From Gammaproteobacteria bacterium (GTDB taxonomy: Bacteria; Pseudomonadota; Gammaproteobacteria; Tenderiales; Tenderiaceae): a DNA stretch of 64,000 nt. The notes beneath the pieces are model-generated. The model made no database searches, was not told the DNA's origin, and saw only the letters and a list, made by a program, of their open reading frames with translations. Below are positions 7,117 through 37,115 of the stretch, piece by piece. A program made the position numbers and the translations under genes. Within the stretch, counting starts at the first letter, position 1. Each line of letters begins with the position of its first letter. The stretch spans positions 1-64,000 of the forward strand of contig JAKFXL010000037.1 in NCBI GenBank assembly GCA_021731365.1. The letters run 5' to 3'.

Positions 7117-7125
7117 TTGATTTTT

Positions 7126-7159
7126 GCACGGTGAGGCAGATGTGTCTGCCCCACTGTGC
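7126..7159 (+). other. strong hairpin between lipoprotein gene and yebC
   Basis: A 15-bp stem with one G-T pair and one mismatch (7126-7140 with 7145-7159) has a 4-base loop, 10 bases after the lipoprotein stop. It is not followed by T residues on either strand, so it is not a standard terminator. The rest of the 200-base gap to yebC holds no recognised element. Confidence 0.5.
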
Positions 7160-7319
7160 CTATCCATGTCCTGTTATCAATGACGGGGCGTAAGGGTGCA
7201 AACAGCGCCTTGTCTGGTTTTTGTTATAGCCATGAATTTGTAGTGCCATTGTCATTTCCGCCTGCTCCACCATGATGGTAAACTTTCGCCTACTTGTGAA
7301 CCATCGTAACGAGGGATGT

Positions 7320-25033: not shown

Positions 25034-25101
25034 AAACAGCAGGTAAAGTAGGGTTTTGTTTCTCAATAACGCGCTATCTGGCAGTGAGGTAAGGATTGAA
25101 T

Positions 25102-25935
25102 ATGCGTAATTATAAGTGGCAGGTAAGTGGATTGTTGGTTGCATCGATTGCAGCAACGTTGTTTTCAACTTCGGCGGTCGCCGCTATCAATTACAGCTTT
25201 GCGGGTGGCTCAGGGCAGACCGTGACCGGGTCGAGTTTTTCGGCGGCGGGTGGCCCCAATGTGGTGGTGACCGGCTGGTCCAATACTGTGGTAGCAGGAG
25301 CGCCGGGGCTGGACGATGATCAGCTGGCCGCGCAAACTGTCAAATTGTGGAACGGTTTGGGTGTCTCTAGCAGTGGTGAACCTACCTCCTCTCCCCAGCA
25401 CTCGACTGATAATTCCGGACCTGTGGAGATGATTCTGTTTTCGTTTGCGTCAGATATTGCCCTGGCGGGATTGTCGATAGGATGGTCGCAGACTGACTCT
25501 GACATGACGGTATTGGCCTATACCGGTGGTGGTGCGCCGAGTTTGGCGGGCAAGACCTACAGTCAATTAACGGCGGTGGGTGGTGGCTGGAGCTTGATAA
25601 GTCATCTCTCCAATGTTTCCAATGTTTCGTCGAACAGCGCCAGCATAACGGGCAGTGCAGCCTTTAATACTGGTGCCAGCCCGATATTTTCATCTTACTG
25701 GCTTGTGGGGGCGTACAACCCTATTGTTGGCAGTTCTCCTGGTTGGACGAGGGATAATGATTTTGTCAAAATCAGCGGCCTGACAGGTAGCACCAAGCCG
25801 ACTGGCGCTGGACAGGTGCCGGAACCCACCACACTGTTATTGATGGGGGCGGGATTGTTGGGCATGACTTATGTGCGTCGTCGTGAGACATCGGTTAAGT
25901 CTGGGAGCAAGGCGGGTAACACTCTTTCCTGCTAA
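25102..25935 (+). CDS. exosortase-dependent surface protein, XDP1-like, PEP-CTERM
   Basis: A 277-residue secreted protein. A signal peptide (about 1-27, ending SAVA) is followed by a Gly/Ser/Thr-rich beta domain and the C-terminal sorting signal at about 239-261: VPEPTTLLLMGAGLLG, then YVRRR. The body contains features I associate with the XDP1 family: the run SIGWSQTDSDMTVLAYTG and SSYWLVGAYNP. An exosortase would cleave at the PEP motif and release the protein into the exopolysaccharide layer. Sixteen residues follow the Arg cluster, a longer tail than most PEP-CTERM proteins have. ATG at 25102 with AAGGA six bases upstream is preferred over TTG at 25096. Confidence 0.85.
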   Translation: MRNYKWQVSGLLVASIAATLFSTSAVAAINYSFAGGSGQTVTGSSFSAAGGPNVVVTGWSNTVVAGAPGLDDDQLAAQTVKLWNGLGVSSSGEPTSSPQHSTDNSGPVEMILFSFASDIALAGLSIGWSQTDSDMTVLAYTGGGAPSLAGKTYSQLTAVGGGWSLISHLSNVSNVSSNSASITGSAAFNTGASPIFSSYWLVGAYNPIVGSSPGWTRDNDFVKISGLTGSTKPTGAGQVPEPTTLLLMGAGLLGMTYVRRRETSVKSGSKAGNTLSC

Positions 25936-25953
25936 TCATCGCGTTTGTTTGTT

Positions 25954-26020
25954 AGGGAATCTCTGAACGTTGCCAGCCCTTCGACAGGCTCAGGGCGAAC
26001 GGGGTTATTCAGAGGTTCCT
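25954..26020. repeat. 67-bp palindromic intergenic repeat
   Basis: Outer arms AGGGAATCTCTGAA and TTCAGAGGTTCCT are near-perfect inverted copies, and the centre holds CCCTTCGACAGGCTCAGGGC, an inner imperfect palindrome. A core of this type recurs in intergenic regions of many gammaproteobacteria, which makes it a REP- or MITE-like element. It follows the PEP-CTERM stop by 18 bases and could act as its terminator or mRNA stabiliser. Confidence 0.7.
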
Positions 26021-26153
26021 TAAATAAAAAAAGTGTGGCTTTATCTGTGGTGTTGAATAGTCGCGGCTGTATTGGTTATGGATGACCCAGATGTATGAGG
26101 TGAGGCGGAGCCCTCGCAACATATAAAAACAACAAAAGTGGTTGGGGTCAGGC

Positions 26154-26740: not shown

Positions 26741-29392
26741 TTGTCAGATCTACTAGAACGCATTGCTAGCGGCGCCACTGTGCTCACCGTCAACAGCCGC
26801 CTCGCGCGCCATCTGCTGAGCGAATATGAACAGTGGCAGCTGGCGCAGGGCAGCACTCACTGGCCGACACCGGAGATCGTGCCGTGGAGCGCCTGGGTGC
26901 AGCGGCAGTGGCAGGCGCTGGCCTTTGTCGATAGCGATCAGCCAACGCTGCTTGCGGAAGAGGCGGCGCTGGCGCTGTGGGAACGGGTGATCGAGGACTC
27001 GCGCTGGGGCGATCTCCTGCTCAACAGTCAGGCCACGGCGCGTGCTGCCATGCAGGCGTGGCGGCTGTTGCGGCAGTGGCAGCTGCAACCGGCCGTGTTG
27101 GCCCATGAGGAGGGCGCTGATACGGTCGCCTTTTACGCCTGGGCCGAGGCATTTCAGAAACGCTGCCGCAACGAGCGCTGGCTTGATGAGGCGGCACTGC
27201 CCAATCAGATCACTGCCGCGCTTGTTGACGGCAAGCTCAGTGTCGCCGCTGAATTTCTCTGGATAGGATTTGATGACCTGACACCGCAACACCAGGCGTT
27301 GATGGCGGCGCAACAGCAGGCTGGTGCAGCTGTGGCGCAGCTCGATCTGCCGCACAAAAGCGCCCAGCCACGCACGCTGGCCTGTGCCGATAGCAGCAGT
27401 GAGATCCGCGCCATCGCCGCCTGGTTGCGTGATCTGCTTGATAGGGGCGAGCCCGGCCCCATCGGCGTGGTGGTGCCAGAGCTGGCGGCGCAGCGCCATA
27501 ACATTGAACGCATATTTGACGAGGCGCTGCTGCCCGGCGCGGTGCTCGACCTGAGTCAGCCGCACCCCAAACCCTACGACATCTCACTTGGTTACGGCCT
27601 GGCGACACTGCCGGTAGTTCACACAGCACTCAATCTGTTTTCGCTGGTGCGTGCCCCGGCACCGTTACATCAGTGGGGTCGACTGCTGCTCTCACCTTTT
27701 ATTGCCGGTGGCGAACAGGAGTTTCTGCTGCGTGCACAACTCGATGCCACGCTGCGCCGTCACGGTGAAAACTCACTGACGTTGAAAAATCTGATCTATC
27801 AAGCGGGGCGTCACCACTGCCCACTGTTGGCCCAATCACTCAAACGTTTTGCCGATAGCTACAGCGCCCTGCCGCGTCGTCAAAGTCCTGCTGCCTGGGC
27901 GCGCAGTTTTGAACAGCTGTTGCAGGCCGCCGGTTGGCCCGGTGAACGCAGCCTCGATAGCCACGAATATCAAACAGTACAGGCGTGGCGCAAATTGCTG
28001 ATACGTTTTGCCGGGCTCACCGAGGTGTTGCCGGAGCTGAACTACGCCGATGCGCTGAAACAGCTACGGCAACTGGCGGGCAGCACACTCTTTCAACCAC
28101 AGAGCCAGTCACGACCGATCCAGGTGATGGGGGTGCTGGAGGCGGTGGGTCTGGAGTTTTCGCACTGCTGGGTGATGGGGTTGCACGACGGTGTCTGGCC
28201 GCCAGCACCACAACCGAATCCCTTCCTGCCCATCACTCTGCAACGTAGCTTGCAGATGCCACACGCCTCGGCTGAGCGGGAACTGAATTTCGCCACACAG
28301 GTGAGTCGTCGTCTCTTTGCCGCAGCGCCGCAGGTGATCATCAGCTATCCGTTGCATGAAGGGGATAGTGAGCTGCGCCCCAGCCCATTGATTGCTGAGC
28401 TTGAACCGCTGTCGCCGCCCGATTGGTTGACGCAACCACCGCCACGTTATCGCAACCAGATGTTTGCAGCGAGGGCATTGGAGAGTTACAGCGACTGGCA
28501 GGGACCGGTGCTGGCCGATGATCTGCCCGTCACAGGCGGTACCAGCATCTTCAAGGACCAGGCCGCCTGTCCGTTCCGCGCCTTTGCCCGCCATCGCCTC
28601 TTTGCCGATTCGCTGGAAGAGCCGGAGTCGGGGCTTGGTGCCGCCGAACGGGGCAGTCTGGTGCATAAAGTTTTGGAGGCGTTCTGGAAACAGACCAACG
28701 ATCTGCTCAGTTTGAATCAGCTTGACGTCGAGGCGCTACAGCAGTGTGTCACCGGGATTGTTGTCACCATCATCGCGGCGGAGGCGCAAAAATATCCGCA
28801 GATATTTACCGAACGTTTCGCCCAACTCGAATGTAATCGTCTTACCAAACTCACCTGCGCCTGGCTGGAGGTTGAACGTGGCCGGCCCGCCTTTGCGGTG
28901 GCGGCACTGGAGGCGGAGCAGCTGTTTGCCATCGGCGGTATTGAGGTGAAGATGAAGGCCGACCGCATCGATAGATTGGCGTCGGGTGGCGAGATGATCA
29001 TCGACTACAAAACCGGCAAGACCAGTGTCAACGACTGGTTTGGTGAACGTCTCAACGAACCGCAACTGCCACTCTATGCACTGGCGCAGGGTCACGCCGC
29101 AGAGGCGATCACCTTTGCCGCGCTGCGCCCGGAGCGGTGTGCCTTTCAAGGGGTGAGTAAGGATGAAAATGTGGCCAAGGGTATCAGTCAGAGCAAAATT
29201 GATTGGGGTGTACAGCAGGGAATCTGGCGCGATGCGTTGACTAATCTGGCGCAAGAGTTTCGCCAGGGGCGCGCCGTGGTTGAGCCAAAGGAGGGGGCCA
29301 AAACCTGCACCTACTGTGACCTTGGGCCACTCTGCCGCATTAACGAACTCAACGGACTGGGATTGGCTGAAGTGGAGAGTGAAGATGAGTAG
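26741..29392 (+). CDS. AddB-like nuclease with 4Fe-4S site (probable DNA repair protein)
   Basis: An 883-residue protein of the AddB/Cas4-like superfamily, often annotated as probable DNA repair protein in gammaproteobacteria. The first 500 residues resemble a degenerate helicase fold without a usable Walker A. The C-terminal third is a PD-(D/E)XK nuclease domain: KADRIDRLASG, then MIIDYKTGKTS. Cysteines at about 610, 856, 859 and 865 (ACPFRAFARH and CTYCDLGPLC) match the AddB iron-sulfur staple. The start is TTG at 26741 behind AAGGG. It overlaps the helicase gene by eight bases, so the two are surely a complex for double-strand-end processing. Confidence 0.85.
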   Translation: MSDLLERIASGATVLTVNSRLARHLLSEYEQWQLAQGSTHWPTPEIVPWSAWVQRQWQALAFVDSDQPTLLAEEAALALWERVIEDSRWGDLLLNSQATARAAMQAWRLLRQWQLQPAVLAHEEGADTVAFYAWAEAFQKRCRNERWLDEAALPNQITAALVDGKLSVAAEFLWIGFDDLTPQHQALMAAQQQAGAAVAQLDLPHKSAQPRTLACADSSSEIRAIAAWLRDLLDRGEPGPIGVVVPELAAQRHNIERIFDEALLPGAVLDLSQPHPKPYDISLGYGLATLPVVHTALNLFSLVRAPAPLHQWGRLLLSPFIAGGEQEFLLRAQLDATLRRHGENSLTLKNLIYQAGRHHCPLLAQSLKRFADSYSALPRRQSPAAWARSFEQLLQAAGWPGERSLDSHEYQTVQAWRKLLIRFAGLTEVLPELNYADALKQLRQLAGSTLFQPQSQSRPIQVMGVLEAVGLEFSHCWVMGLHDGVWPPAPQPNPFLPITLQRSLQMPHASAERELNFATQVSRRLFAAAPQVIISYPLHEGDSELRPSPLIAELEPLSPPDWLTQPPPRYRNQMFAARALESYSDWQGPVLADDLPVTGGTSIFKDQAACPFRAFARHRLFADSLEEPESGLGAAERGSLVHKVLEAFWKQTNDLLSLNQLDVEALQQCVTGIVVTIIAAEAQKYPQIFTERFAQLECNRLTKLTCAWLEVERGRPAFAVAALEAEQLFAIGGIEVKMKADRIDRLASGGEMIIDYKTGKTSVNDWFGERLNEPQLPLYALAQGHAAEAITFAALRPERCAFQGVSKDENVAKGISQSKIDWGVQQGIWRDALTNLAQEFRQGRAVVEPKEGAKTCTYCDLGPLCRINELNGLGLAEVESEDE

Positions 29393-32300
29393 GGTTGTTG
29401 ATGCCGCGCAGCGGTTGCAGGCACTAGAACCGAACGGCTCTTTCATCGTACAGGCCCCCGCCGGTTCGGGTAAGACCGGTCTCATCACCCAGCGTTTTCT
29501 GGTGCTGCTGGCGCGGGTCAACTCACCGGAAGAGATCATCGCCATCACCTTCACCCGCAAGGCGGCGGCCGAGATGCGCGACCGTCTGTTAAGTGCGTTG
29601 CGGCTGGCGACCAAACCGTTGCCTGCGGATGCTGATCCTTATCTTAAGCAGACCCGTGACCTAGCCTGTATCGCGCTGGCGCGTGATGCCGAGTTGAACT
29701 GGCAGCTACTCAGCAATCCGGCGCGGCTGCGTATGCAGACCATCGATTCACTCTGCGCCTCACTCACACGTCAGCTGCCGGTGATGGCGCGTTTTGGCGC
29801 ACAGCCGGGGATTGCCGATGATCCCGAGAGTCTCTACCGCGAAGCGGCGCAGCAGACCCTGGCCGATCTTGAGCGGGGCGAGGCGTGGTCCTCTTCAATA
29901 GAGCATTTGCTGGCCCATCTTGATAACAATCTTTCAGTCGCTGAATCGATGCTGGTGCAGATGTTGGCCAAACGTGATCAGTGGCTGCGCCATCTGGTGA
30001 GCCTGCTCAGTGAAGATGAGCGGCGTGAGCTATTGGAGCAGGCACTGCAAGGGGTGATCGATTCCACATTGCAACGGGCGCAGCAGCTATTTCCCGTCGC
30101 GCAGATCTCCGAGCTGTGTGAGGTGATGAATTTTGCCGCCAACCACGTCAACAATGATCACACCATGGCCTGCTGCCGTGAGTTGAGTGATCTGCCCGAT
30201 GAGGATGTGGCGCAGTGGCAAGGTGTTATCGAACTGTTGTTGAAACAGGATGGCGACTGGCGCAGCAACATTAAAGGCATCACTGCCAAACAGGGTTTTC
30301 CCGCGGCCTCAAGCACCAAAGATAAAAGCGAGGCGCAGCTTTTTACCCGTAAAAAAACCGCGCTGGTGGAGCTGACGGGATTGTTGAGTGAGGTACCCGA
30401 TCTGCAACAGGCGCTCAACGATATTCGTAGCCTGCCCGGTCCAAATTACAGCGACGATCAGTGGCAGATTGTCGAGGCGATGTGTGAGCTGTTGCTGGTG
30501 GCGGCGGCCCATCTGCGAGTTGTTTTTGGCAGCCGTGGTCAGGTCGATTTCAGTGAGATACAGCAGTCGGCACTGCAAGCGCTGGGAGATGAGGATAATC
30601 CTACCGATCTGGCGCTATCGCTCGACTACCGCATCCAGCATCTGCTGGTGGATGAGTTTCAGGATACCTCGTTTGGCCAGTATCGGTTGTTGCAGCGCCT
30701 GACGGCCGGTTGGCAGCGTGGTGATGGTCGCACGCTGTTTCTCGTCGGCGATCCGATGCAGTCGATCTACCGTTTTCGTGAAGCAGAAGTAGGATTGTAT
30801 CTACGTGCCCGCCATGAAGGCATTGGTGAGATAGTGCTGACGCCACTGACGTTGAGTGTCAACTTCCGCTCCCAGGCGGGCATCGTTGAGTGGGTCAACC
30901 AGAGTTTTGCGCAGCTGTTTCCACAGCAGGAGGATGTCACTGTCGGCGCGGTCAGTTACAGCGACTCGGTTGCGTTTCATGGCCATGATGGCGATGCAGT
31001 GACGATTCATCCGGCGCTGAGCCACGATAGCGAGGGCGAGGCGTTAAAAATTGTGCAGCTGGCGCAACAGGCGTTGCAGCAGAACCCCCATGGAACCGTC
31101 GCCGTGCTGGTGCGGGCGCGCAGCCATCTGGTGGCGATCGTTGCCGCCATGAAACGGGCCGGGCTGCGCTATCGCGCCATCGAGATCGAAGCACTTGGCC
31201 ATCGTCCGGTGGTGCAGGATCTCTATGCACTGACACGAGCGCTGTTGCATCCCGCTGATCGTATTGCCTGGTTGGCGCTATTGCGGGCGCCGTGGTGTGG
31301 GCTGTCGCTGACCGATCTTGCTGCACTTACCAACGGGCCGCGTCGCTCTGTGGTTTGGGATCTGATACAGGACGTGGCGTTGCTCTCGGCGGTTGGTCAG
31401 CAACGTTTGCAACAGCTGCAAACAGTGTTGGCGCAGGCGCTGCAATCGCGCGGCCGTCACCGTTTACGGCGTTGGATTGAATCGGTCTGGGTGCAGCTGG
31501 GCGGTCCTGCCTGTGTTGAAAACACCACCGATCTTGAAGATGCCGAAGTCTTTTTTAATCTGCTGGATAGGCTTGATAGCGCCAGTGGCCTGGATGAGCT
31601 GAAACAACTCGATGAGTCGCTGGCGCAACTCTACGCCCTGCCAGATGTTGATGCCGATGAACGGATTCAGGTGATGACCATCCACAAGTCGAAGGGGTTG
31701 GAGTTCGACACGGTGATCCTGCCCGGCCTTGGCCGCAAGGCACCACCCGGTGATAGCCCGATGCTGGTATGGCAGGAGCGCTGGTCCGATGGCGGCAGTG
31801 AACTGCTGCTGGCGCCAGTGCGCGCTACCGGCGAAGAGCACGACGCCATCTACCGTTATATACAGAAGATCGCCGCCCAGAAGGGGGATTACGAAACCGG
31901 GCGGGTGCTCTATGTTGCCGCCACCCGTGCCAAACGCCGGCTGCATCTGCTGGGCCATACCACGATCAATGAAGATGAATTACGCGAACCGCAGAAGAGT
32001 TCGCTGCTGCGGCTGTTATGGCCGGTGGTGGAGCCGCATTTTAGTGAGTTGCAGTCTGCAGAGTCTTCGCCGCAACCGGCGGAGCTGGTATTGCCAACGG
32101 CTGCGCCTCTATTGCGGCGACTGGTCTCGGATTGGCAGCTACCCGCGCCAGGCGCAGCGGTGGCGGTTGTCAATGTGGAGGCTACCGTGCCGGGCGAGTC
32201 ACTCAATCCTGAGTACCTCTGGGCCGGTGAGAGTGCACGCCACATCGGTACCGTGGTGCATGAGTTGCTGCAACGCATCGGCGAGGAGGGGGTGGGGCAG

Positions 32301-32780
32301 TGGAGCGGTGAACGTATCGTATCACTGCGGCACTACTATCAAATCGCACTTACTCATCTTGGTGTTGTTGCTGATGAGCTCACTGCCGCAGTACAGCGTG
32401 TTGAGCAGAGCCTGTTACAGACCCTGAATGATGAGCGTGGTCGTTGGTTACTTGATAATACCCATCAGGGGAGTCGTTGTGAGTATGCGGTCAGCGGAGT
32501 GTTAAATGGTCAGGTGGTGCATGCTGTTATCGACCGTACCTTTATTGATGCGGCGGGGCGGCGCTGGATTGTTGATTACAAAACCGCCAGCCATGAGGAC
32601 GATGATGTGGACAGTTTTATTGCCGATGAGGCGTTGCGTTATCGCCCACAGCTGGAACGTTACGCGCAGATGATGGCGCTTGAAGATGAGCGTCCCATTG
32701 AGCTGGGCCTCTATTTTCCCTTGTTAAAAAAATGGTATAGCTGGTCCTATTTGTCGCCTGTTAGCCATGAAGGGGGGTGA
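29385..32780 (+). CDS. AddA-like UvrD helicase-nuclease
   Basis: A 1131-residue superfamily 1 helicase fused to a nuclease. Motif I is QAPAGSGKTGLITQRF (residues 20-35), the Q-motif region precedes it, motif II is LLVDEFQDTSFGQYRLL, motif III follows as FLVGDPMQSIYRFREA, and motif V/VI are VMTIHKSKGLEFD and YVAATRAKRRL. The C-terminal PD-(D/E)XK nuclease has AVIDRTFID and RWIVDYKTASHED. It should unwind and resect DNA ends with the AddB-like partner, as RecBCD or AddAB do. ATG at 29385 lies within the partner's last codons. The frame extension to 29280 is shadow. Confidence 0.9.
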   Translation: MSRVVDAAQRLQALEPNGSFIVQAPAGSGKTGLITQRFLVLLARVNSPEEIIAITFTRKAAAEMRDRLLSALRLATKPLPADADPYLKQTRDLACIALARDAELNWQLLSNPARLRMQTIDSLCASLTRQLPVMARFGAQPGIADDPESLYREAAQQTLADLERGEAWSSSIEHLLAHLDNNLSVAESMLVQMLAKRDQWLRHLVSLLSEDERRELLEQALQGVIDSTLQRAQQLFPVAQISELCEVMNFAANHVNNDHTMACCRELSDLPDEDVAQWQGVIELLLKQDGDWRSNIKGITAKQGFPAASSTKDKSEAQLFTRKKTALVELTGLLSEVPDLQQALNDIRSLPGPNYSDDQWQIVEAMCELLLVAAAHLRVVFGSRGQVDFSEIQQSALQALGDEDNPTDLALSLDYRIQHLLVDEFQDTSFGQYRLLQRLTAGWQRGDGRTLFLVGDPMQSIYRFREAEVGLYLRARHEGIGEIVLTPLTLSVNFRSQAGIVEWVNQSFAQLFPQQEDVTVGAVSYSDSVAFHGHDGDAVTIHPALSHDSEGEALKIVQLAQQALQQNPHGTVAVLVRARSHLVAIVAAMKRAGLRYRAIEIEALGHRPVVQDLYALTRALLHPADRIAWLALLRAPWCGLSLTDLAALTNGPRRSVVWDLIQDVALLSAVGQQRLQQLQTVLAQALQSRGRHRLRRWIESVWVQLGGPACVENTTDLEDAEVFFNLLDRLDSASGLDELKQLDESLAQLYALPDVDADERIQVMTIHKSKGLEFDTVILPGLGRKAPPGDSPMLVWQERWSDGGSELLLAPVRATGEEHDAIYRYIQKIAAQKGDYETGRVLYVAATRAKRRLHLLGHTTINEDELREPQKSSLLRLLWPVVEPHFSELQSAESSPQPAELVLPTAAPLLRRLVSDWQLPAPGAAVAVVNVEATVPGESLNPEYLWAGESARHIGTVVHELLQRIGEEGVGQWSGERIVSLRHYYQIALTHLGVVADELTAAVQRVEQSLLQTLNDERGRWLLDNTHQGSRCEYAVSGVLNGQVVHAVIDRTFIDAAGRRWIVDYKTASHEDDDVDSFIADEALRYRPQLERYAQMMALEDERPIELGLYFPLLKKWYSWSYLSPVSHEGG

Positions 32781-32846
32781 GATTTGCCGTGGAAGTTATA
32801 GGGACGGATTGTTTCTGATGTTTTTGAGTTTGGAGAATATCAATAC

Positions 32847-32874
32847 TTGCGTCAATGTTTTGCAAAGGTATAAT
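32847..32874 (+). promoter_or_regulatory. predicted sigma-70 promoter in the intergenic region
   Basis: TTGCGT at 32847-32852 and a perfect TATAAT at 32869-32874 are separated by 16 bases. Transcription would begin near 32881, more than 500 bases before gltX, and into the structured region described next. Confidence 0.55.
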
Positions 32875-32880
32875 GCTTGT

Positions 32881-33197
32881 AGTATTTGGCCTCAGCCAGA
32901 AACAAACTGCTGTTTTGTAATGTGATTCTGTATCGCATTGAAGTATCTGGAGGGGGGGCCGGCATATCTCTGGGGAGGGAAACGTCTGAAGTGATTTCAG
33001 ACTAAGAATGCCGGTATTAGTCCTGGGGAGGACGCCATGGATGGCACACTAAAAATAATAATAATTGTGAAATCGACCATCGTTGGTGGTCTTCTCTAAA
33101 GTGGTTGAAGTGGGAGAAGTATCCATGAGCCACTTGATGGTGTAGGTCAACCAATTGACGTGGCGGCTTAATCTGGACTCGAGTCGCCTGGTTTTTT
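32881..33197 (+). ncRNA. candidate structured RNA upstream of gltX
   Basis: No gene is recognised between 32781 and 33393. A promoter at 32847 and a terminator-like hairpin at 33162 bracket about 315 bases that fold into several local stems: CCGGCAT (32959-32965) with ATGCCGG (33008-33014), enclosing GTCTGAA/TTCAGAC (32984-33002); GTCCT-GGGG-AGGAC (33020-33033); GACCAT/GGTGGTC (33075-33091); and GTCAA/TTGAC (33146-33159). CTGGGGAGG occurs twice, and GGA triplets are frequent in loops. It does not match the RNAs I know (6S, SRP, RNase P, tmRNA, common riboswitches). It could be a small RNA, perhaps with CsrA-type sites, or a gltX leader. Confidence 0.35.
33162..33197 (+). terminator. terminator-like hairpin before gltX
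   Basis: GGCGGCT (33162-33168) pairs with AGTCGCC (33182-33188) through one G-T pair, and six T follow at 33192-33197. The loop is 13 bases, somewhat long. It lies about 200 bases before gltX. Between it and gltX only a weak promoter candidate (TAGAAT at 33335-33340) is seen. Confidence 0.5.
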
Positions 33198-33393
33198 CCG
33201 CAGTAGTTTCTATTCCAATATCGTCTATCTTTGCCCCCTGTCTGGGCGCGCCCTCTTTATATAGTGTTTATAGGTTTGTGGTGGTTACAATCGAATCCTC
33301 GCTGCATAAAACATCCCTAATGCGGTGGGTTTGCTAGAATAGCCCCCTTGGCCTCTCCAACTATGAAGTTCAGCCATGATTTAAAGGATTGAG

Positions 33394-34797
33394 ATGACGG
33401 TACGTACCCGCTTTGCCCCCAGCCCAACGGGCTATCTGCACATTGGTGGCGCCCGCACAGCGCTCTTTTCCTGGCTTTATGCGCGCAAACATGGCGGCCG
33501 TTTTGTGCTGCGCATCGAGGATACCGACCTGGAGCGCTCCTCAGCCGAGTCGGTCAATGCGATCCTGGAGGGCATGACCTGGCTGGGGTTGGAGTATGAC
33601 GAAGGGCCGTTTTACCAGACCCAACGTTTTGATCGCTACAAAGAGGTGATCGGGCAGCTGTTTGATCAGGGCCACGCCTACCACTGCTACTGCTCGCGTG
33701 AAGAGCTGGATGCGATGCGTGAACAGCAGATGAACAACAAAGAGAAGCCACGTTACGACGGTCGCTGCCGCCAGCGTACTGAACCGCGCCCCGGTGTGGA
33801 GCCGGTGGTGCGCTTCAAGAACCCTGTCGACGGTGATGTGGTGATCGGTGATCTTGTAAAGGGAGAGATCGTCATCAGCAATCAGGAGCTGGATGACCTG
33901 ATCATAGCCCGTTCTGACGGTACCCCCACCTATAACTTCTGCGTGGTGGTGGACGATGCCGATATGGGCATTGACTATGTCATCCGTGGTGATGACCACA
34001 TCAACAATACCCCGCGTCAGATCAATATGCTTAAGGCGATGGGGATTGAGCCGCCCAAGTATGCCCACCTGCCGATGATTCTCGGCGGCGACGGCCAGCG
34101 GCTCTCCAAACGTCACGGTGCGGTGAGTGTGATGCAGTACCGCGAGGAGGGGTTCCTGCCCGAGGCGCTGCTTAACTATCTGGTACGGCAGGGGTGGTCA
34201 CATGGTGATCAGGAGATTTTTTCCCTCGATGAGATGATCGAACTATTTTCGCTGGAGGGGTGTAACCGCGCCGCCTCGATCTTTAATCGTGACAAGCTGC
34301 TCTGGCTTAACCATCAGTACATTATGAATAGCGATCCTGCGCATGTGTTTCATCATTTGAGTTATCACCTCGGCTCACTGGGGATCGATCCTGCCAGCGG
34401 CCCTGACATCATCGAGGTGATTAAGGCGCAGCGTGAAAAGGCCAAGACCCTGGTTGATCTGGCTAAGGTGTGTGAGTTTTACTACCGCGACCCAGAAACG
34501 TATGACGAGAAGGCGGCTAAAAAGGCCTTTAATGCCGAGGCGGTAGTGGCGCTGGCTAAATTGCGTGAGGCGCTGGCCGTTATGATCGAATGGAGTCGCG
34601 AGGCGATCCATGCGGCGTTGCAGCAGGTGGTGGATCAGTTGGGTGTTGGCTTTGGTAAGGTTGGCATGCCGGCACGGCTGGCCATTACTGGTGGCGCGCC
34701 ATCCCCCGATTTGGATCTGGTGATCCAGTTGGTGGGTAAAGAGACGGCCCTGCGCCGTTTTGATAAGGCGATTGAGTTTATCAACGCTTCAATATAA
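33394..34797 (+). CDS. gltX: glutamyl-tRNA synthetase
   Basis: Charges tRNA-Glu (class I synthetase). The 467-residue protein has the HIGH motif in [19 protein letters not shown] (residues 8-26), the KMSKS equivalent [10 protein letters not shown] near residue 236, and an all-helical anticodon-binding domain after about 320. The segment [15 protein letters not shown] belongs to the Zn-type insertion, but only some cysteines are kept (CHCYC, then RYDGRCR). It precedes glnS and the tRNA-Glu genes, so enzyme and substrate RNA are close neighbours. Confidence 0.96.
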
Positions 34798-34805
34798 AAA
34801 TTAAG

Positions 34806-34902
34806 GTAGCCCGGATGTAGCGTAGCGAAATCCGGGGTTCTCTCCCAGGATTGTATCTGTTGCATGCCCAAAGCGCTTCGCGGGGCAGGCTCTCCGGGCT
34901 AC
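34806..34902. repeat. 97-bp palindromic repeat between gltX and glnS
   Basis: The ends GTAGCCCGGA (34806-34815) and TCCGGGCTAC (34893-34902) are perfect inverted repeats; inside, GCGTAGCGAAATCCGGGG follows the left end and a second hairpin (GCGCTTCGCGGGGC) lies near the right. The motif GTAGCCCGGAT-n-AGCGAAATCCGGG is a widespread REP-like intergenic element in gammaproteobacteria. It fills the gap nine bases after gltX and ends 20 bases before glnS. Confidence 0.75.
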
Positions 34903-34921
34903 ATATATAGGAAATTTCAGG

Positions 34922-36613
34922 ATGAGCGAAACAACCAACCCCCCAACCAATTTCATTCGCCAGATCATCGACGAAGATCTGCGTAGTGGTAAACGTACCA
35001 ATGTAGCAACGCGCTTTCCGCCCGAGCCTAACGGCTATCTGCACATTGGCCATGCCAAATCGATTGTCTTGAACTTTGGTATCGCCGAAGATTACAACGG
35101 CACCTGCAATCTGCGTTTCGACGATACCAATCCTGGCAAGGAGAACATGGAGTTTGTCGAGGCGATCCAGCGTGATGTGAAGTGGCTCGGTTACAGCTGG
35201 GATGAGAGGCTCTACTACGCCTCCAACTATTTCCAGAATCTGTATGAGTTTGCGCTGGAGCTGATTAAAAACGGTAAGGCCTACGTCTGCGAACTCAATG
35301 CCGAGCAGACCCGTGAGTATCGCGGCACCTTGAAGGAGCCGGGCAAGGATAGTCCTTACCGTAGTCGTTCTGTTGCAGAGAATCTCGATCTGTTCGAGAA
35401 GATGAAAAGCGGCGAGTTTGAAGATGGCACCAAGGTGCTACGCGCCAAGATCGACATGACATCCCCTAACATCAATATGCGCGATCCGGTGCTCTACCGT
35501 ATCCGTCATGGCGTTATTCACCATCAGACCGGTGCCGAGTGGTGTATCTATCCGATGTACGACTACACCCACCCGATCAGCGATGCGCTGGAGGGGATTA
35601 CCCACTCACTTTGTACTTTGGAGTTTGAGGATCATCGGCCTTTCTATGATTGGGTGCTCGATAATATATCTGTCGGTTGTCATCCACAGCAGATCGAGTT
35701 CTCACGCCTCAATCTTGAATACACCGTGATGAGTAAACGCAAACTCACCCAGCTGGTGAGCGAAGGGTTTGTGAATGGTTGGGATGATCCACGCATGCCA
35801 ACCCTGGCGGGTATCCGCCGTCGCGGTTACACACCGGCAGCAATGAAACTTTTCTGCCAGCGTATCGGCATTACCAAGAGCGAAGGCATCGTAGAGATGG
35901 AGCTGCTGGAGAACTGTGTACGGGAAGATCTGAATATCATCGCACCACGCCGCATGGCCGTGCTTGACCCGCTCAAGGTGGTGATCACTAACTATCCCGC
36001 CGATCAGGTGGAGCAGTTAACGTTACCCAACCATCCCCAGGATGAATCCATGGGCACACGTCTGGTACCTTTTTGTAACGAGATCTATATCGAGCAAGAA
36101 GATTTTCTCGAAGAGGCCAACAAAAAATATAAGCGGCTGGTGAAGGGTGACTGTGTACGGTTGCGTAATGCCTATATTATTCAATGTGACGAGGTGGTTA
36201 AGGATGATTACGATAACATTGTCGAAATCCACTGTAGTTATATTCCCGACTCCATCGGCAGCAACCCTGAAGGTATCAAACCGCGTGGTGTGATCCATTG
36301 GGTCTCGGCGCGTCATGGCGTGGTGGCCGAAGTGCGCCTCTATGACCGGCTTTTTGCGGTGGCTGCGCCTGATGCGATGGCCAATAAAGAGGATAAGGCG
36401 TTCACTGATTACCTGAGTCCTGACTCCCTGCACACATTGACACACTGTGTGGTTGAGCCAAGTCTGACTGATGCCCAGCCGGGAGATAGTTACCAGTTTG
36501 AACGTCAGGCCTACTTTTGTGCCGATCTTGATCACGGTAATGGTAAGGTTGTCTTTAACCGTACCGTGACGCTACGTGATACTTGGGCCAAGATCGAACA
36601 AAAGGGCCGTTGA
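34922..36613 (+). CDS. glnS: glutaminyl-tRNA synthetase
   Basis: Charges tRNA-Gln directly (class I, derived from the eukaryotic-type GluRS). The 563-residue protein has HIGH in [18 protein letters not shown] (about residues 40-57), the KMSKS loop VMSKRKL near 273, and the two beta-barrel anticodon-binding domains after about 345. Its presence shows that Gln-tRNA is made without the amidotransferase route. It starts 19 bases after a palindromic repeat and is followed by the tRNA genes. Confidence 0.96.
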
Positions 36614-36657
36614 TAAAGGGGTAGCGTGAGAATTATGGGAGGGGTTGTAATTGTTGC

Positions 36658-36686
36658 TTGACGAGGTGGTGAGTCACGCTTAAAAT
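36658..36686 (+). promoter_or_regulatory. promoter of the tRNA-Ala/tRNA-Glu cluster
   Basis: TTGACG (36658-36663) and TAAAAT (36681-36686) are 17 bases apart, and a GC-rich discriminator (GCGC) follows at once. That is the layout of a strong, stringently controlled stable-RNA promoter. It lies 20 bases before tRNA-Ala. Confidence 0.75.
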
Positions 36687-36705
36687 GCGCATCTCGTTTA
36701 GATAC

Positions 36706-36781
<76 letters not shown>

Positions 36782-36805
36782 AATTTTAGTTTTTAAGGTT
36801 TGTGT

Positions 36806-36881
36806 GTCCCCATCGTCTAGAGGCCTAGGACATCGCCCTTTCACGGCGGTAACCGGGGTTCGAACCCCCGTGGGGACGCCA
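36806..36881 (+). tRNA. tRNA-Glu (anticodon TTC), copy 1
   Basis: A 76-base tRNA with acceptor GTCCCCA/TGGGGAC, anticodon loop CTTTCAC (anticodon TTC), T-arm GGTTCGAACCC and encoded CCA. It lies 24 bases after tRNA-Ala and is probably processed from the same transcript. A weaker hairpin (AAGGCCTAC/GTGGGCCTT, 36891-36917) follows. Confidence 0.98.
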
Positions 36882-36999
36882 TTTAGTACCAAGGCCTACC
36901 GTGAAAGTGTGGGCCTTATTTAAAATAAAACTCTTCGGTGCTGTATTTTTAGGCCAATTTGCCGAAGTAAGTGATACACAAGGTTTTTAAAGTTTGTGT

Positions 37000-37075
37000 G
37001 TCCCCATCGTCTAGAGGCCTAGGACATCGCCCTTTCACGGCGGTAACCGGGGTTCGAACCCCCGTGGGGACGCCA
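37000..37075 (+). tRNA. tRNA-Glu (anticodon TTC), copy 2
   Basis: Identical in all 76 bases to copy 1, including the encoded CCA. It may be read from the tRNA-Ala promoter through the weak hairpin between the copies. Confidence 0.98.
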
Positions 37076-37084
37076 TTTAGTACC

Positions 37085-37115
37085 AAGGCCCGCAGAATAT
37101 GCGGGCCTTTTTTTC
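37085..37115 (+). terminator. rho-independent terminator of the tRNA cluster
   Basis: A perfect 10-bp stem AAGGCCCGCA/TGCGGGCCTT with a 5-base loop runs into seven or more T. It is also the point where convergent minus-strand genes end. Confidence 0.93.

Follow-up and report, generated by a model that had tools for sequence, protein, structure and literature searches.

In class II small RNAs, the distal face of Hfq binds A-rich (AAN)n tracts and its proximal face binds poly-U (PMC7145675). RNAs of the Csr/Rsm type (CsrB, CsrC and RsmX/Y/Z) are free-standing, terminated molecules with multiple hairpins and GGA motifs, of which E. coli CsrB has 22 (PMC7652899); the high-affinity CsrA/RsmE site is an ANGGAX six-base loop carried on a stem, and GGA motifs that are occluded or paired are bound worst (PMC4005645). 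In a further group, the type I toxin mRNAs and dual-function small RNAs such as Ibs, TisB and SgrS/SgrT, a short hydrophobic ORF is combined with a sequestered Shine-Dalgarno sequence.

Here we present a candidate small RNA gene located between an addA-like gene and gltX in a 64-kb window, the whole stretch of DNA that was analysed, which forms the start of a contig in a genome of 3.4 Mb and 83 contigs. The sequence and its statistics give promoter-like and terminator-like elements, a non-random fold between them, and a separate promoter for gltX. Positions 32881-33197 are probably a real transcription unit. For the fuller reading, an independently transcribed, intrinsically terminated, lineage-specific small RNA gene whose product most likely acts in trans and is held by Hfq, we put the chances at about even. 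An earlier note on this DNA had described a structured RNA that lies outside the known families and is provided with a promoter and a terminator of its own, and that description is supported by the analysis; the two functions it had proposed, a CsrA/RsmA decoy and a gltX leader, fare badly, as discussed below.

The GltX protein of the window is closest, at ~81% identity, to those of uncultured Tenderia-like gammaproteobacteria. None of the relatives examined has addA next to gltX; the two genes lie kilobases apart there, and in most of these relatives a SirB-family gene comes next after addA; thus the gene order differs between the lineage of the window and its relatives. The copy of this gene after addA in L120 matches PF04247 with E = 5e-43, and L126 also has a SirB-family gene there. 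The window has no SirB-family neighbour at that place, where the RNA candidate and gltX stand instead. Downstream, a row consisting of gltX, glnS, tRNA-Ala and two tRNA-Glu genes (33394-37108) ends at an intrinsic terminator at 37108.

Table 1. Features of the interval between the addA-like gene and gltX, with window coordinates
Feature	Position	Strand	Basis or remark
addA-like gene, UvrD/PD-(D/E)XK helicase-nuclease	29280-32780		ORF upstream of gap
Intergenic gap, addA-like ORF to gltX	32781-33393		613 bases
Sigma-70-type promoter, TTGCGT + 16-base spacer + TATAAT	32847-32874	+	TTG-N19-21-TATAAT in 2.4% of gap shuffles
-35 box TTGCGT; -10 box TATAAT	32847-32852; 32869-32874	+	
Candidate small RNA gene	32881 to ~33197	+	start inferred from -10 box; end = U tract
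Closing helix around multibranched domain	32886-32892/33144-33150 + 32895-32898/33138-33141	+	mean pair probability 0.88, 0.86 (predicted)
Hairpin, 9 bp, 32918-32926/32932-32940	32918-32940	+	mean pair probability 0.95 (predicted)
Three-way domain GCCGGCAU/AUGCCGGU, 8 bp	32958-33015	+	pair probabilities 0.93-0.98 (predicted)
Long imperfect hairpin, 19 bp, 33024-33044/33077-33098	33024-33098	+	pair probabilities 0.86-0.96 (predicted)
Possible 20-codon ORF MDGTLKIIIIVKSTIVGGLL, Shine-Dalgarno GGGGAGGA	33037-33099	+	4.2% of shuffles hold SD, ATG and 18 or more codons
AAAAAUAAUAAUAAUU, five consecutive ARN triplets, possible Hfq distal-face site	33051-33066	+	(ARN)5 in 1% of shuffles
Hairpin AAGUGGUU/AGCCACUU, 8 bp, inner stem	33099-33135	+	mean pair probability 0.95 (predicted)
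Intrinsic terminator GGCGGCUU/GAGUCGCC, then UGG, then U6	33162-33197	+	0.25% of gap shuffles
Separate gltX promoter, extended -10 TTGCTAGAATAG	33331-33342	+	like sequence upstream of gltX in relatives
gltX	33394-34797		ORF downstream of gap

The elements expected at the two ends of a transcription unit were both found in the gap, correctly ordered and suitably spaced (Table 1). Their chance occurrence was estimated from 2000 dinucleotide-shuffled versions of the 613-base gap, scored for the same patterns; none of these (0/2000) held promoter and terminator jointly. The promoter was indeed present ahead of the RNA, as proposed earlier, and its TATAAT hexamer is perfect; the epithet "strong" did not carry over to the -35 box, which is poor. 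The terminator-like stem followed by six T was likewise confirmed, with 8 bp (33162-33169/33181-33188, 5 GC), an 11-base loop and TTTTTT at 33192-33197. This pattern appears to be specific, since it has only five sites across the window, two of them directly 3' of tRNA genes (17373 and 37108). A simpler scan for promoters and terminators overlooked the two elements, its limits on the -35 box and on loop size being stricter. On the minus strand of the gap, simple consensus scans gave no matching promoter or terminator.

Folding of the interval between these signals revealed a stability well beyond that of shuffled sequences, which bears out the idea of a multi-hairpin structure extending over about 315 bases. 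The RNA from 32881 to 33197 has a predicted free energy of -106.5 kcal/mol (z = -3.64, with 0/100 shuffles equally stable), and the domain 32886-33150 reaches z = -4.15; the significance is concentrated at ~32950-33150 and confined to the stretch between promoter and terminator. The anatomy in Table 1 is a prediction from a single sequence, in which the named helices have pair probabilities of 0.86-0.98. The three-way domain (z = -4.29 for 32957-33016) encloses two hairpins, at 32967-32980, with the loop GGGG, and at 32984-33002. The long hairpin (z = -4.0 for 33020-33100) ends in an A/U-rich apical loop, and the AAGUGGUU/AGCCACUU hairpin follows with z = -3.2 (33099-33136). The motif CTGGGGAGG, which had been pointed out as a repeat, does occur twice, at 32970 in the first inner hairpin of the three-way domain and at 33023 in the long hairpin, but the repetition is within chance: a repeated 9-mer was found in 16% of shuffles and a local alignment of the two copies gave P = 0.19, so that an internal duplication was rejected. 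The minus strand was also considered as the RNA and rejected, having locally equal structure, a weaker overall fold (-78.1 kcal/mol vs -106.5 kcal/mol for the plus strand) and no signals of its own.

The candidate RNA matches no described family. An Rfam search, both at the gathering cut-off and with E up to 10, returned chance matches only, in agreement with the claim that this is none of the standard RNAs; a housekeeping RNA (6S, tmRNA, RNase P or SRP) was rejected for want of a match to the Rfam models. Homologues were sought by BLAST and with two single-sequence covariance models, built on the parts 32957-33050 and 33075-33197, and none was detected in 10 genomes of the family; BLAST and the first model found none in 369 genomes of the class, the second model being run on 37 genomes only. 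In relatives, the sole match of the covariance models was the window itself, and the genomes searched include no second member of the genus. Similarity at the DNA level was absent from plasmids, phages, an IMG/VR pattern search and the genomes of family and class. Two short DNA matches were judged to be chance, that in L002 lacking the hairpin arms and that in L003 comprising only the A/T-rich tract. Also, inspection of synteny in relatives, at addA and at gltX, gave no equivalent RNA. Because no homologue was found in the family and class genomes, a function of the RNA is backed by neither conservation nor covariation. Base-pairing small RNAs turn over fast, and the missing homologues are therefore weak evidence against function.

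Several functional assignments were weighed against these observations. The RNA precedes gltX, is encoded on the same strand and has a terminator at its end, an arrangement that would suit a leader or attenuator sensing tRNA or glutamate. That reading is extremely improbable: gltX appears to be served by a conserved promoter of its own, TTGCTAGAATAG, unique within the window and 134 bases past the terminator of the RNA, which argues that the RNA is not its leader. A promoter of this kind is found just upstream of gltX in L004, L005, L008, L010 and L087, relatives that have the promoter without the RNA, and Rfam gave no T-box or riboswitch match. A decoy of the CsrB/RsmZ type, suggested earlier from loops with GGA, is very improbable as well. 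The genome does encode CsrA (PF02599, 91.9 bits), the candidate resembles CsrB/CsrC and RsmX/Y/Z in being a free-standing RNA with several hairpins, a terminator and some GGA, and at 33035-33044 one CANGGANG sequence, CCAUGGAUGG, might fold into a six-base loop with a closing C-G pair. Unlike those RNAs, however, the candidate shows no enrichment of GGA (8 vs a shuffle mean of 8.0) or of ANGGA (2 vs 2.0). Most of its GGA motifs are largely paired in the predicted fold, with only that at 33175 fully unpaired, and a single alternative hairpin, GCC[AUGGAU]GGC, is the one GGA-loop candidate. No GacA/UvrY box (TGTAAG-N6-CTTACA) occurs within 3 mismatches near 32847, and no Csr/Rsm family was matched in Rfam even at E up to 10. 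Genome-wide, GacA/UvrY boxes were not above a control pattern, the best pair lying inside a coding gene.

An mRNA for a small peptide, or a dual-function RNA, is the chief functional alternative, if quite unlikely. The locus has a possible short hydrophobic ORF with a sequestered Shine-Dalgarno sequence, as have Ibs, TisB and SgrS/SgrT. The 20-residue product MDGTLKIIIIVKSTIVGGLL would be hydrophobic, its ATG is preceded at good spacing by the strong Shine-Dalgarno sequence GGGGAGGA, an arrangement that few shuffles reproduce (Table 1), and both Shine-Dalgarno and start codon are predicted to pair with the end of the ORF within the 19-bp hairpin, so that the start would be locked as in silent type I toxin mRNAs. 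Against this, the hydrophobic run derives from a AATAATAAT tract, searches of Pfam and of plasmids returned nothing for the peptide (with only 20 residues, such a query has little power), and simple consensus scans gave no convincing antisense promoter in the gap; the candidate differs from these systems in having no antisense partner that was found, and it has no sequence relation to them, its coding being putative. The candidate might instead have no function and be a spacer, perhaps transcribed, whose structure is fortuitous and which remained after a rearrangement that joined addA and gltX; we consider this unlikely. The different gene order, with a SirB-family gene after addA in most relatives, is in keeping with such an origin, as are the lack of a homologue anywhere searched and the strong folding of other gaps in the window (7117-7271 and 25936-26141). 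What speaks against it is that a promoter, a terminator and strong structure occur together and in the order one would expect.

The reading that we favour is thus an independent small RNA acting in trans in association with Hfq, because the genome encodes Hfq (PF17209, 105.9 bits) and the candidate combines (ARN)5 with a U6 tail, the combination of class II small RNAs. RNA polymerase with sigma-70 would start at about 32881 and stop when it reaches the U tract (33197), and the product would be a compact RNA in which a helix-closed multibranched domain is followed by the terminator. Hfq would then hold this RNA at its 3' U tail and at the ARN tract, which lies in the apical loop of the long hairpin, and the RNA would regulate other transcripts in trans. 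That the candidate acts via Hfq is a tentative proposal, to which we give rather less than an even chance. The (ARN)5 tract, with P = 0.01, is modest evidence for Hfq, since it is one motif among several that were looked for. Like ChiX, CyaR, MgrR and McaS, the candidate has an ARN/AAN tract and a terminator with a U tail; unlike them, it is far more folded, its binding by Hfq is putative, and it has no sequence relation to any of them. At ~315 nt it is also much longer than these four RNAs. Few stretches accessible for base pairing are left in the predicted RNA, and none of its pairings with the start regions of 16 genes in the window was convincing (strongest z -2.1).

The candidate looks like a credible lineage-specific small RNA gene, ordinary in kind, and not a new kind of system. 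It is improbable that it stands for a new class of large (~315 nt), helix-closed, multibranched dual-function RNAs, restricted to one Tenderiaceae-like lineage, in which a long hairpin presents an Hfq tract at its tip and a small ORF is locked by structure. If expressed, it would be a small RNA gene missed by curated models and by homology searches; we found no small-RNA work on this bacterial group in the open literature searched. Its value lies mainly in annotation, and as a case in which structure and transcription signals point to a gene that has no detectable homologues; alone, it changes nothing in what is known of RNA regulation.

Two other gaps in the window were observed to have unusually stable predicted structures. 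Upstream of a yebC-family gene (7272), the gap 7117-7271 contains a near-perfect hairpin of very high stability, GCACGGTGAGGCAGATGTGTCTGCCCCACTGTGC (100-nt z = -6.8), with no clear T-run after it. The gap 25936-26141, which follows the gene for a PEP-CTERM protein (25096-25935), has a 100-nt z of -3.55.
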